From Arachidicoccus rhizosphaerae (lineage in GTDB: Bacteria; Bacteroidota; Bacteroidia; Chitinophagales; Chitinophagaceae): a stretch of 35,412 bases of DNA. The translations under genes and the position numbers were made by a program. Positions 13,311 through 35,275 of the stretch are shown here, in pieces. The notes beneath the pieces are model-generated. The model was not told where the DNA came from and made no database searches. It saw only the letters and a list, made by a program, of their open reading frames with translations. The stretch lies in NCBI RefSeq assembly GCF_900107765.1, contig NZ_FNQY01000032.1, positions 1 to 35,412 on the forward strand, read 5' to 3'. Position 1 is the stretch's first letter, and every line of letters starts with the position of its first letter.

Positions 13311-13967
13311 ATGAGTGGTATGAAACTATGGTTAGGGTCCGTACTTTGTTTTGCACTGCTAACTTCTTGTGTAGAACAAAAAAATCATCAAAGAAATATG
13401 GACGATCAATTTGCTGACAAAGATTTTGAAATGGAAAATGTAGATACAGCTACGCTGGGAACAGGATGTTTCTGGTGTACAGAGGCAATATTCCAAAGAC
13501 TGAAAGGAGTTGTAAAAGTGGTAAGCGGATATAGTGGGGGTGAAAAACCTGACCCTACATATGAAGAAGTTTGTAACGGGACTACCGGCTACGCCGAAGT
13601 ATGTCAGGTCTTATATGATCCCAAAGTGCTTTCTTTTGATGAATTACTGAAAGTCTTCTGGGAGACCCATGACCCGACCACGCTCAACCGGCAGGGTAAT
13701 GACGTCGGACCCCAATACAGAAGCGTGATCTTCTTTCACAATGCGGACCAGCAGCAAAAAGCAGAACAGTATAAAAAAGAACTCAATGCCAGCGGCGCCT
13801 GGTCGAACCCTGTGGTGACTTCCATTGAACCCTATAGAAATTTCTATTCTGCCGAAAACTATCATCAGAATTATTATAATAATAACCCCAGACAGATGTA
13901 CTGTCAGTATGTAATCAAACCTAAGCTGGAGAAATTTGAAAAGGTCTTTAAAGATAAAATGAAATAG
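13311..13967 (+). CDS. msrA: peptide-methionine (S)-S-oxide reductase, lipoprotein form
   Basis: 218 residues. A signal peptide ends in the lipobox LLTSC (Cys20), so this MsrA is exported and lipid-anchored. It would reduce S-methionine sulfoxide in envelope proteins. The catalytic core begins near residue 47 with GCFWC (52-56; C53 nucleophile), followed by GVVKVVSGYSGG and YEEVCNGTTGYAEV, all family-typical. No MsrB domain is fused. Start could be Met1 or Met4. Upstream, TTTG at 13251 and TA-n-TTTG at 13274-13280 resemble a promoter with a shortened -7 box. It is followed by a very strong hairpin shared with the convergent M1 peptidase. Confidence 0.95.
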   Translation: MSGMKLWLGSVLCFALLTSCVEQKNHQRNMDDQFADKDFEMENVDTATLGTGCFWCTEAIFQRLKGVVKVVSGYSGGEKPDPTYEEVCNGTTGYAEVCQVLYDPKVLSFDELLKVFWETHDPTTLNRQGNDVGPQYRSVIFFHNADQQQKAEQYKKELNASGAWSNPVVTSIEPYRNFYSAENYHQNYYNNNPRQMYCQYVIKPKLEKFEKVFKDKMK

Positions 13968-26144: not shown

Positions 26145-26774
26145 CTATCCGGAATCTTTAAACGACTGTGGTACGGATTCTCTTTTAGATAGAATTTGTA
26201 TGATTTCATCAATGTGAAAAGGCCTGTATTCCCCCAATAACCTATAAGCACTGTCTATTCCAACATCCATACTTCTGCCCCATGCTTTGTTGGGGTGTCT
26301 GTCAATTGCGTCATGGCTGTGGCCATAAAGGTGAAAATGTCCTTTATGCATATGGTGCCAGACACGCATGGCATAATGACAAAGCAAAAATATATGACCA
26401 TGATAATTGAGTTCCATCATATCCGAAAGGGAGCTGAACTTGTCATTATATTTCTCTATTTTGGTGTCATGATTGCCGATGATGTGATGTAGATTCCTGC
26501 AAACAATACGGTCCCTTAACTGAGGGATAAAAGTGTGATTTTTAAAAACAAAATCCCCCAGATTAATCATAATGTCATCATGACCGACATGCTTATTGAT
26601 CTGGTCAATGATATGATCCGTCATTGTAAACTCGTCTTTAAAATCCCGGAAACCGGATTCCCAGACAGTTCTGTTCGGCCCGCTGATATTTTTATGCAAC
26701 AGGTGAAGTCATAGGTCCGAGGTAAACCAGATATTTCTGGCACCCTCGGACGCATTTATTTTTAGGTGAAACAT
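26145..26774 (-). pseudogene. calcineurin-like metallophosphoesterase, interrupted by in-frame TGA
   Basis: The frame opens at ATG 26774-26772 and reads MFHLKINASEGARNIWFTSDL, then TGA (26711-26709), then LHLLHKNISGPN and onward to 26145. Family proteins start with a beta strand ending in a D-x-H-x-x-H motif (SDxHxxHKN). Here removing six bases (such as CTATGA) restores SDLHLLHKN exactly, so a 6-nt insertion has introduced both the stop and two extra codons between Asp and His. The other metal-site motifs are intact: NLGDFVF, IIGNHDTK, LLCHYAMR and YGHSHD. A restart at TTG 26699 would lack the first Asp and His ligands, so an active enzyme is unlikely. It lies 80 bp downstream of the RNA ligase on the same strand and may have healed RNA ends for it (inference). 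Confidence 0.8.
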
Positions 26775-26854: not shown

Positions 26855-28162
26855 TTAATTGTCCTCTTCCATATCTGCAAGCTGTTTGTCCTGAGCTCCT
26901 GATTCATATAACTGAAATTTCCTGGATTTGATTTTAAAAGCCCGTACACAGGGATAGCTGTCCTGACGCAGGACAAACCCTTCTTCCGTTACCTGAGGAT
27001 CTAATATCGAAGGCATATCCAGCAGGTGTTTATAAAATAACTCTTCCAGTGCCGGTTGTAAACTTATCTCATCCACCAAATCCGGTATTTCAATGTAATG
27101 GCGCTGCAGTAAAGGTGCCAGCATACCGTGATAAAATTCCGGCACCGTATCCAGACCTAACTGTGATGCTCTTTGTTTAACCTGAGACCAGCTCAGGTCA
27201 ACTTCGATACCTTCCGGATTGATCTGGGTAATTCGGTAGATAAAAAGTTTAGGACCGGATAATCCATACGTATATCCCTGTTGGATAGCACCACCCTCAA
27301 AATCCGAACCCACTATTTCTGCATATATGGATTCTCCTTTATTGAGTTTGTCCTTCAGGCAGTCCTGGGCAACTTTTGTCCAAAGATCGGGCTTGAAAAA
27401 TTTGTAATTATTGACTGAACCAAAATCTTTGGATTTAATCAGTCTTCTGGATCCAACCAGGTAGCTGTATTCACGGTCCTGGATATTGACACCCAGTTTT
27501 TTAAGGAATTTCTCCATCAGGTTCAGCCTGCGTTTGATCAGGGTATGAAATACCCTGATGGAAGTGCCATGGAGTTTGTGAGTAATGGTTACCTGGCTTA
27601 GTAAGCCCAGATGCTGACAGTTTTTTAATAACTGCGCCGTATCCGTGTGTTCGGGTGCAAATTTGGGATCTACCAGCGTCTGGATATCAAAGTTTTTAAT
27701 TTTGACCGCACCTGAACTAAATCCTCTTTGCGGACGAATGAATTTCCTGCAAATAGACTGTCTATTGATGTCCGTAAAACTCTCCCCTATAGGGAGTAGG
27801 GCCGGATCAATCAGGTAGCCCAGGCTTGCCGCCGGAATGATAAAACCCGTTGAGATAATCCCTTTGAATTTAAGGGCTTTGACCCTGCCTGAATCTTCAA
27901 AAAATCCTGTTTTACTTGGATCCAGATTTTGCGGGGCATGACGAAATAGATTATTGTTGAATAAAAACTTCTGGTCCAGCACGCAACCTGATGGGAAAAA
28001 CAGGTATTTCCCCGCTGAATCACTGGTTTTCTGAACCAGACAATCATTGCCCTGATAGGTAACCCGGACCAGATTGTCCAGACTGGGAACCTCTACCTTG
28101 GCAGGCAAGGATATAACCTGGGCTGTGTAGTTTTCCGATCCTTTCTGAATACTTAAATGCAT
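26855..28162 (-). CDS. RNA ligase, Rnl5/DraRnl-like, with N-terminal OB domain
   Basis: 435 residues. Covalent nucleotidyltransferase motifs appear in order: I, K196-LHGTS (K-x-x-G-x-S, the lysine that carries AMP); III, IYAEIVG (279-285); IV, EEGFVLR (393-399); V, AFKIK (408-412, two Lys). The ~190 residues before motif I form a separate, beta-rich region, matching the N-terminal OB-fold module known in the Deinococcus radiodurans DraRnl (Rnl5) family, which seals 3'-OH/5'-phosphate nicks in duplexes with an RNA 3' end. The motifs are intact, so the enzyme is probably active, using ATP. A DNA ligase is unlikely: no zinc finger, BRCT or C-terminal OB domain. It sits between a small phage-type gene upstream and a damaged metallophosphoesterase downstream on the same strand. 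The family call is from architecture and motifs, not a search. Confidence 0.85.
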   Translation of the reverse strand: MHLSIQKGSENYTAQVISLPAKVEVPSLDNLVRVTYQGNDCLVQKTSDSAGKYLFFPSGCVLDQKFLFNNNLFRHAPQNLDPSKTGFFEDSGRVKALKFKGIISTGFIIPAASLGYLIDPALLPIGESFTDINRQSICRKFIRPQRGFSSGAVKIKNFDIQTLVDPKFAPEHTDTAQLLKNCQHLGLLSQVTITHKLHGTSIRVFHTLIKRRLNLMEKFLKKLGVNIQDREYSYLVGSRRLIKSKDFGSVNNYKFFKPDLWTKVAQDCLKDKLNKGESIYAEIVGSDFEGGAIQQGYTYGLSGPKLFIYRITQINPEGIEVDLSWSQVKQRASQLGLDTVPEFYHGMLAPLLQRHYIEIPDLVDEISLQPALEELFYKHLLDMPSILDPQVTEEGFVLRQDSYPCVRAFKIKSRKFQLYESGAQDKQLADMEEDN

Positions 28163-28349: not shown

Positions 28350-28664
28350 TTAATGGCATAAGTCTGCCTCCGGGCATCCCGTGGCTTCTCTGTTCAGCGC
28401 TGCATTCAGTCTTTTAGAAAATTCTTTTTCACCGTCATCATAACTTAAAAACCAATCAATTCTTTGCATATACACATAGGCTATTCGAAGCTGTTTTAGC
28501 CCCTGTTCTAATTTTTCCAGCGTATCAGTCGTCATTTCTGGAAATTCAAAACGGTTGTCTTCTGCACCTGATCTGATTTTTTTAATGGTTTCTATACTGT
28601 TACGAAGCAAGGTGATGGCATCTAATAACCGACACTGATTGTATTCAAACAATCCTCCTGACAT
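28350..28664 (-). CDS. conserved small protein, MSGG-family, phage/accessory type
   Basis: 104 residues. It starts MSGGLFEYNQCRL, continues with a helical middle (ITLLRNSIETIKKI, TLEKLEQGLKQLRIAYVYM) and ends QRIDWFLSYDDGEKEFSKRL. I recognise this pattern (MSGG-x-F-x-Y near the start, QRIDWxxSxDDGExxFxxRL near the end) from uncharacterised proteins found in phages and accessory regions of many bacteria; I know of no function. No signal peptide or membrane segment. Same strand as, and 187 bp upstream of, the RNA ligase gene, so possibly co-transcribed. Confidence 0.7.
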   Translation of the reverse strand: MSGGLFEYNQCRLLDAITLLRNSIETIKKIRSGAEDNRFEFPEMTTDTLEKLEQGLKQLRIAYVYMQRIDWFLSYDDGEKEFSKRLNAALNREATGCPEADLCH

Positions 28665-34131: not shown

Positions 34132-34149
34132 CAGGGTTGACGCATTAAA
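34132..34149. repeat. left terminal inverted repeat of the IS
   Basis: CAGGGTTGACGCATTAAA. It matches the reverse complement of 35394-35411 in 17 of 18 positions (T/C difference at the sixth base). The transposase stop codon (34145-34147) lies inside it. Confidence 0.85.
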
Positions 34150-35275
34150 TTTTAGCCCCTGCTATCATTTCGAGCAGATAATCATTGTCCCAGGCGGCCA
34201 TATTCCTTTTTCGCCTGGCGCTAATTCTTGTACCTCCCTTGTCTTTTTCACCCGGATTATGGTTTTTTATCAGGTTTAAAGCTACTTTGGTCATTAATGA
34301 GAAGTTCTGGGCAGCATTCCCCTCTCTTTTCTTGCTTTGGTCCTCTCTGAATGCAACATCCAGCGTCCAATGCAATTTATTTTCAATGCCCCAGTGGCTT
34401 CTTATATAACTGTTAAACTGCTCTGCGCTAGCATTCTTACTGCTGATATAATAGCGCACTGCGTCCTCCTGTTTACCCGATTTTTTATCTATTCGTTTAC
34501 TTAGTACCATAATGATACAATATAATTGCTGCCATTCTTTTCGACTGCATACCCAGTCAAGATCATGAATTACTTTAGTTGTCCGTGTTTCTATACGACC
34601 ATGACTCAATTCAACTTTTGCCTCGTATTCATCATCTGCCTTTACTTCCTTAAATGCATCTTTAATGTCATCTTCCAAGAACTCCTGATTACCTTTTACC
34701 GCTAATACGTAGTCCCCTTTGCCGGCAATTATCTTTTTGGCGATTTCTTTTTGTGTCCCCATGGCGTCTATCGTAATAATAGCCCCGTCAATAAAGAGCG
34801 CATCCAACAGCTTTGGAATTGCCGTGATTTCATTACTCTTTTCGTAGACCTTCTGTTGACCCAGAACCAGATTACTTTCATTACACCAGGCACTGACCAT
34901 GTGGATAAAACTACCTTCACTGTCTACACGGCTGCCACGCAAGCATTTACCATCTATGCTGATAACCCGGTCATTCAAGGTGCTGGCTATCGAGGAAACC
35001 CACTCACTGAAACATTGCTCTAAGGCTGCACTATCTGCCTTGGCAAAGAAACGGTTAAAAGTATCATGGGAGGGGATGCCTCCCGAGAGATCTAAAAACT
35101 GACCAAGCCATCGCTGTTTCTTTATCCCGAAATCTTCTATGTCATACCAACTCTCAGCTCCACTTATAATCGCTGCCAAGGTTATTGCAATAATGGTGTC
35201 TAACTTATGTACTTGTTTTCGTTTCATCCGGTGGTCTTTGTAACCACGAAAATAGGTTAAAGGGGCGCTTGTCAT
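34145..35275 (-). CDS. ISAs1 family DDE transposase
   Basis: 376 residues, full length and uninterrupted. The N-terminal DDE-associated region (about 5-100) has HKLDTIIAITLAAIISGAESW and GIPSHDTFNRFFA, typical of ISAs1. The catalytic triad candidates are D108 (ISIDGKCLRG), D170 (IITIDAMGTQ) and E298 (SHWGIENKLHW), with the family tail FREDQSKKREGNAAQNF. It cuts and joins the IS ends. The gene starts about 120 bp from the right end of the element and its stop codon overlaps the left inverted repeat, so little non-coding DNA remains. No frameshift, so the element may be active. Confidence 0.95.
   Translation of the reverse strand: MTSAPLTYFRGYKDHRMKRKQVHKLDTIIAITLAAIISGAESWYDIEDFGIKKQRWLGQFLDLSGGIPSHDTFNRFFAKADSAALEQCFSEWVSSIASTLNDRVISIDGKCLRGSRVDSEGSFIHMVSAWCNESNLVLGQQKVYEKSNEITAIPKLLDALFIDGAIITIDAMGTQKEIAKKIIAGKGDYVLAVKGNQEFLEDDIKDAFKEVKADDEYEAKVELSHGRIETRTTKVIHDLDWVCSRKEWQQLYCIIMVLSKRIDKKSGKQEDAVRYYISSKNASAEQFNSYIRSHWGIENKLHWTLDVAFREDQSKKREGNAAQNFSLMTKVALNLIKNHNPGEKDKGGTRISARRKRNMAAWDNDYLLEMIAGAKI

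Follow-up and report, generated by a model that had tools for sequence, protein, structure and literature searches.

A candidate in-frame stop hop in metallophosphoesterase genes of Arachidicoccus and of viral contigs

We analysed a 35,412-nt stretch of DNA from Arachidicoccus rhizosphaerae (contig NZ_FNQY01000032.1, here called the window) and found that one of its genes, a calcineurin-like metallophosphoesterase on the minus strand, has an in-frame stop codon within its first metal-binding motif. The comparison of this gene with bacterial and viral relatives suggests, with a probability of around 0.83, that this is an active gene in which an in-frame stop hop, i.e., a translational bypass of six nucleotides, is programmed. 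In a stop hop, matched codons flank the stop and nine nucleotides specify one residue (reviewed by Atkins and colleagues, PMC5009743). This was shown with synthetic E. coli constructs (Weiss 1987, as cited in PMC5009743). For in-frame stop hopping in nature, a passage of that 2016 review states that "no occurences are known", and another notes that natural stop hops might hide among presumed readthrough genes (PMC5009743).

Read from the ATG at 26774, the gene encodes MFHLKINASEGARNIWFTSDL, then meets TGA, and continues with LHLLHKN in a frame that stays open until the TAG at 26145. The initial annotation had proposed this gene family, strand and start, and both the translation of the open reading frame (ORF) and a match to phrog_547 agree with it. 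Standard decoding yields a 21-residue peptide. The motif then reads TSDL*LHLLHKN, and six nucleotides must be skipped to obtain an uninterrupted D-x-H-x-x-H. The ORF that follows the stop matched phrog_547 (E 1.6e-30) and no Pfam model at 0.001. We used two other Arachidicoccus genomes, G001 and G005, beside the genome of the window (G000, 4.87 Mb). The intact G001 orthologue passed the PF00149 cut-off of 21.5 bits (27.8 bits), and its AlphaFold2 model (mean pLDDT 88) has a phosphoesterase fold, with 1xm7 as the best structural match (TM 0.64 by query length, 0.71 by target length). The gene matches phrog_547/PF00149 in sequence family and in fold, and differs from nearly all the relatives considered here by its interruption. 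Relative to the G001 orthologue (TCG GAT TTA CAT CTA CTC CAT), it has exactly two extra codons at D-x-H, which are the six extra bases pointed out in the initial annotation. Homologues without the insertion, which that annotation had anticipated, exist: among them are the G001 gene and 79 viral relatives from an unpicked set of 80 (the best of 162 confirmed; 77 recognised by a first pattern, and L147 and L178 by inspection, L-numbers denoting individual loci, mostly viral contigs). The single exception among these 80 (L150) reads SDL*LHFGH. The motif was also uninterrupted, with H22 invariant, in all rows of two alignments (10/10 and 30/30) whose rows were picked from uninterrupted genes.

The gene is present in three of the six Arachidicoccus genomes, G000 included. 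We took the three loci as orthologous because they have the same gene order (RNA ligase, phosphoesterase, FtsX-type permease). The G005 gene is interrupted at the same place by another stop (GAC CTT TAA CTA CAC, where the window has GAC CTA TGA CTT CAC), which makes an assembly error in the window unlikely. The Leu codons on either side of the stop are not the same in the two genes: each is changed at the wobble base and remains Leu. G000, G001 and G005 are near-equidistant by species comparison. In the 28 codons that follow the stop, the synonymous distance (pS) between G000 and G005 was 1.16 and the nonsynonymous distance (pN) 0.21; the remainder gave 0.80 and 0.15. The residues LHLLH are identical despite synonymous codon differences. 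The saturated pS with low pN, together with the unchanged LHLLH, therefore indicate that the sequence after the stop is under coding selection. The initial annotation had read the insertion as a single recent-looking event, a reading that we rejected on the evidence of the two-codon insert in G005, with a different stop and at saturated synonymous distance, and of the viral genes described below. Codons 1–20 showed 1.0 synonymous difference in 12.2 sites between G000 and G005 (0.08), the lowest value among 1,389 twenty-codon windows of the phosphoesterase, RNA ligase and permease genes (Fisher p 0.008 on identical codons). The corresponding distances in the pairs with G001 were 0.62 and 0.50. 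Since the nonsynonymous distance of these codons is not lower, the conserved entity would be the RNA rather than the peptide.

We scanned viral contigs with three patterns that left both codons around the stop free, i.e., that were codon-unbiased, our search covering this phosphoesterase family. The scans gave 7, 8 and 17 contigs, and combined 18 contigs with 15 distinct phosphoesterase genes, three of which are represented by two contigs (L197/L198, L200/L201, L211/L215). Five scan contigs (L206, L207, L208, L212, L214), and earlier L190–L193, were dropped as non-phosphoesterases on the basis of their translation. The contigs are metagenomic assemblies, and L195, L204, L211 and L213 run off the ends of their loci, with the rest of L211 available from L215. 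The codons flanking the stop were synonymous in all 15 viral genes: Leu in nine, Thr in four, Gln in one (CAG TGA CAA), and Ser in one (TCA TGA TCG). With the two bacterial genes this makes 17 of 17 interrupted genes (Leu 11, Thr 4, Gln 1, Ser 1), with flanks always alike in the first two bases and identical in five cases. The stops themselves vary (TGA in eight genes, TAG in five, TAA in four). By chance, about 6% of pairs of sense codons would be synonymous; as the interrupted genes are related, we do not rely on a combined probability.

The interrupted genes are scattered in the tree of the family. In a tree of 103 protein bodies, built without those shorter than 120 amino acids (L195, L203, L211, L213, L170) and without rows sharing their first 150 residues, the 13 interrupted rows needed 11 changes, of which at least five are forced by well-supported branches. 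Their clustering is weak (shuffled labels were as low in 60 of 500 cases). X-peptide searches of named phages gave no confirmed interrupted gene among the matches listed: the four phage matches examined (L216–L219) were all intact, and most of the remaining matches listed were, by their length, consistent with an intact motif. A single-protein scan of genome contigs, the A1 scan of viral contigs, and an LLH-specific pattern returned nothing useful. One of the intact viral genes, L147 (frame from 1516), has three in-frame TGA where its relatives have Trp (NWN, VWN), and this virus looks like one that reads TGA as Trp.

The set of 17 genes bears on two other explanations. The initial annotation had held the enzyme to be inactivated by the six-base insertion. 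A pseudogene would fit the 21-residue product of standard decoding, the truncated viral copy L203, and the lack of a synonymous excess in codons 1–20 between G000 and G005. We consider it very improbable, given that the insert is common to G000 and G005 at saturated synonymous distance, that purifying selection acts after the stop, that this architecture recurs in 15 viral genes, and that stop and synonymous flanks are retained jointly in all 17 genes, along with the covarying hairpin described below. The shorter ORF that the initial annotation had placed at TTG 26699 is real. Three codons separate this TTG from the stop, and a possible start lies within nine codons of the stop in five of the 17 genes. 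A split protein might arise by release of the 21-residue leader and re-initiation at this TTG, or at an ATG near codon 51. Yet such a restart is not general: the first ATG, GTG or TTG comes at codon 22 or later after the stop in 12 of the 17 genes, and G005 has none within 28 codons, with LHLLH unchanged. Re-initiation would also leave the synonymous flanks and the stop-anchored hairpin unexplained, and we regard it as very unlikely.

The RNA preceding the stop is predicted to fold into a hairpin (GTCCGAGG...CCTCGGAC, Table 1). The last bases of its 3' arm are those of the Asp codon, directly ahead of CTA-TGA-CTT. When compared with 7,889 coding windows and with 5,000 synonymously recoded versions, the hairpin of the window was equalled in stability by none, and that of G005 by 6 and 3, respectively. 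The insert-free G001 gene has no unusual hairpin (412 of 7,889 coding windows and 930 of 5,000 recodings were as stable). We found a contiguous stem of 6–13 bp, reaching up to the base that adjoins the take-off codon (the codon preceding the stop), in 16 of 16 measurable interrupted genes, L204 being outside this count because of a contig edge. Among 90 intact controls (103 requested, 94 with the motif, 4 duplicates removed), 79 had fewer than six pairs, 11 at least six, and three at least eight (Mann-Whitney p 3e-10, an indicative value because the rows are related). The mean minimum free energy was -16.8 kcal/mol in the interrupted genes versus -4.6 kcal/mol in the controls. The stem covaries across the 16 genes, at the pair of the Ser wobble base (C-G 10, T-A 4, G-C 2) and at that of the Thr wobble base (G-C 7, T-A 5, T-G 2, C-G 1, mismatch 1). 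An RNA model (R1) searched against 394 genomes of the family matched 11 genomes at E ≤ 1, and only G000 and G005 strongly.

Other roles for the hairpin were considered and rejected. A DNA site made of an inverted repeat does not agree with loop lengths that vary between 5 and 30 nt across the interrupted genes, at a fixed distance from stem to stop. Control of initiation was set aside since the nearest possible start lies 6–20 codons upstream of take-off, yet the stem invariably abuts the take-off codon. Masking of the start is not the function that these genes have in common: in G000, G005 and L203 the sole possible start is outside the hairpin. An intact viral gene close to the interrupted gene L205 in the tree (L142, motif SDTHFCH) has a 10-bp hairpin flush with its Asp codon. 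This gene may have lost the insert by reversion, or may never have had it and represent the state before the insert.

In the mechanism that we propose, the ribosome would translate as far as CTA, the codon that follows Asp, at which point the stop would occupy the A site. The peptidyl-tRNA would release CTA, the mRNA would slide by six nucleotides, and the same tRNA would re-pair on the CTT after the stop. Nine nucleotides would then give one amino acid and the D-L-H of the metal motif would be formed exactly. The genome of the window encodes five Leu isoacceptors (anticodons TAA, CAA, TAG, CAG, GAG), and the re-pairing from CUA to CUU by the tRNA with the TAG anticodon is plausible. The hairpin, refolding as it leaves the ribosome, might pull the mRNA forward, as proposed for the 5' stem-loop of T4 gene 60 (PMC5009743, PMC11194080). 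The shared insert, the synonymous flanks, the covarying hairpin, and the coding constraint after the stop are all present in the sequences themselves; ribosomal hopping, its efficiency, and the role of the hairpin as a motor are inferences.

Plain readthrough, in which the stop is decoded by a near-cognate tRNA to give a product with two residues added at the motif (D-L-X-L-H), would also make use of an insert that is in frame and of the coding sequence beyond it. It would place D and H two residues too far apart in a motif whose D-x-H is kept in 79 of the 80 viral relatives mentioned above, and gives no reason for synonymous flanks in 17 of 17 genes. Moreover, the structure lies 5' of the stop and none stands out 3' in the two bacterial genes. 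We think it improbable that readthrough accounts for these genes. Decoding by selenocysteine or by a suppressor tRNA was rejected: three different stops are used, and the 41 tRNA matches of G000 include no stop-reading anticodon (no SECIS search was made). Removal of the six nucleotides from the mRNA, which would be cut and re-joined, possibly by the RNA ligase encoded next to the phosphoesterase, is suggested by the hairpin adjoining the site and by the ligase gene, which is the immediate upstream neighbour in each of the three Arachidicoccus loci. We find it extremely unlikely. G001 has the ligase without the insert, synonymous codons would not be needed, and a PHROGs scan of 20 neighbour proteins of the interrupted viral genes gave a single RNA ligase match (L196), weak and below kinase/ATPase matches.

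The stop hop as proposed here might owe its origin to a nuclease. We compared the ORFs upstream of the phosphoesterase genes (same strand, at least 80 residues, ending within 260 nt upstream): 13 interrupted viral loci had one, as did 67 of the 90 controls, 23 lacking any by the same rule. In six of these 13 viral loci, the neighbour is a homing-type endonuclease ending 19–160 nt before take-off. Those of L203 and L211 matched LAGLIDADG models and phrog_4645 "endonuclease" (E 3e-19 and 2e-13), and that of L194, which is partial, is related to them. Those of L210 and L213 matched NUMOD3 above the cut-off. That of L200 has no Pfam match and is 50% identical to that of L213 and 34% to that of L210. 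BLAST found no similarity between the LAGLIDADG-type and NUMOD3-type groups. The 67 control neighbours included two HNH and one HNH_5 among the matches listed (25 of 87 families), which leaves room for single further endonucleases; with this count, the difference between 6/13 and 3/67 loci has a Fisher p of 4e-4. A tblastn search (E 1e-6) with the endonucleases of the interrupted loci found no relative in the control loci, most of which extend about 1.5 kb on each side.

This association is, like the features listed above, seen in the sequences. Its explanation by homing is the least certain part of our proposal and is drawn by analogy with T4 gene 60, which has a homing endonuclease at its 5' side and an insert that may have protected against that nuclease (PMC5009743). 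The six-nucleotide insert might have been an immune allele that protected the carrier's own gene from the upstream nuclease, the hop paying the cost, and might later have been retained without the nuclease in Arachidicoccus. A phosphoesterase of the same family lies between two annotated HNH endonucleases in Pseudomonas phage Bitten (L220).

Several observations weigh against the stop hop or its origin by homing. No endonuclease is found at the locus of the window, where the neighbour, as in G005 and G001, is an RNA ligase. The LAGLIDADG scores of L203 and L211 are at or below the Pfam cut-offs, the L200 endonuclease was assigned solely through its similarity to those of L213 and L210, and the phosphoesterase of L203 is a truncated remnant. 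In codons 1–20, pN (0.19) exceeds pS (0.08) between G000 and G005, which gives no evidence of protein constraint there, and the low synonymous distance rests on some 12 sites. The hairpin is not exclusive to interrupted genes (intact L142 has a stem of 10 bp, L151 of 9 bp, L131 of 8 bp), and unlike in T4 there is no notable structure 3' of the stop in G000 and G005 (z -1.3 and +1.4). Finally, the flanking codons differ at the wobble base in 12 of the 17 pairs and in G000 the TAG and GAG anticodons belong to different tRNA-Leu, so that re-pairing would, judging from these codons and anticodons, be imperfect in some genes. In G005, the passage from CUU to CUA would be a wobble mismatch if the tRNA with the GAG anticodon decodes CUU there.

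To our knowledge, very few cases of natural translational bypassing are known. At T4 gene 60, the nuclease is named mobA, and the title of one paper reportedly terms the endonuclease and the bypass sequence a mobile DNA cassette. The phosphoesterase genes resemble this system by the 5' stem-loop beside the take-off codon (16 of 16 measurable genes) and, in part of the viral set (six of 13 loci) but at none of the three Arachidicoccus loci, by a homing-type endonuclease upstream. They differ from it in that T4 gene 60 has an out-of-frame gap of 50 nt with stem-loops at take-off and on the 3' side, and depends on its nascent peptide, whereas the element described here has six nucleotides, in frame, and only a 5' hairpin was found. 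In L213 the sole possible start is 8 codons before take-off, which leaves little room for a nascent-peptide signal of the T4 type. The synthetic stop hops (Weiss 1987) also have matched codons flanking the stop and nine nucleotides per residue, but they are artificial, whereas the phosphoesterase case is natural, recurrent, and includes a hairpin. In the mitochondria of Magnusiomyces capitatus, short inserts (byp) are tolerated by bypass, with some codons imperfectly matched (PMC5009743). The byp elements are found at 81 places within a single organelle whose decoding is relaxed, and have no mRNA context, whereas the phosphoesterase inserts occur in one family and at one motif, in bacteria and on viral contigs. 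Ribosomal protein L9 is known to limit hopping (PMC4399890).

Our search of the open-access literature, with subscription papers mostly outside it, returned among the matches listed no natural in-frame stop hop and no bypass in phosphoesterases. We lean slightly towards the view that these genes are the first natural in-frame stop-hop family, with a minimal element (a covarying 5' hairpin followed by a sense codon, a stop of any kind, and a codon synonymous with the first) that arose or moved repeatedly in viral and bacterial phosphoesterases, partly as a homing immune allele. If this is true, the "nuclease plus bypass" of T4 gene 60 would be a recurrent strategy, here with a six-nucleotide insert at a catalytic motif, and the endonuclease association, if it holds, would give an evolutionary reason for bypassing. 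The 17 genes vary naturally in codon pair, stop, and stem, and this variation allows take-off, landing, and the action of the hairpin as a motor to be tested directly where a nascent-peptide signal is small or absent. They also carry a warning for annotation, since stop-hop genes would resemble pseudogenes or shortened ORFs.

Table 1. Features of the metallophosphoesterase locus in the window. Take-off and landing refer to the proposed stop hop.
Feature	Position	Strand	Basis or remark
Metallophosphoesterase gene including the in-frame stop (calcineurin-like, phrog_547)	26145..26774	-	ORF and profile matches
Lower stem, 5' arm, GTCCGAGG	26744..26751	-	8 contiguous pairs, flush with take-off codon
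Upper hairpin, GCCAGA-AATA-TCTGGT	26726..26741	-	RNAfold
Lower stem, 3' arm, CCTCGGAC (within the T-S-D codons: two bases of Thr, all of Ser and Asp)	26715..26722	-	RNAfold, covariation
Putative take-off codon CTA (Leu)	26712..26714	-	Comparison with G001 and G005, flank table
In-frame stop TGA (TAA in G005)	26709..26711	-	ORF translation and comparison
Putative landing codon CTT (Leu), synonymous with take-off codon	26706..26708	-	Flank table
Putative resume codon CAC (His of D-x-H)	26703..26705	-	H22 invariant in both homologue alignments
RNA ligase gene, upstream (PF09414, phrog_968)	26855..28162	-	Adjoins the phosphoesterase in G001 and G005 too

Some features of the surrounding loci can be added. 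The RNA ligase of the window scored 20 bits with TIGR02306, far under the cut-off of 151. It lies near a phrog_6724 gene (28350-28664), and the two resemble a phage-like cassette of the RNA-repair type in a bacterial chromosome. In G001, a short FtsX-type ORF beside the full permease (L007:10410-10835) resembles, by eye, the fused ends of a deleted second copy. The G001 orthologue (L104) of the msrA gene of the window (13311-13967) has one in-frame stop by tblastn. A second copy of the valyl-tRNA synthetase gene, apparently decayed and with several stops, is found at G004:C25:77417-78736. Near the contig end, the window encodes a DDE transposase with a DDE_Tnp_1-associated domain (34145-35275).
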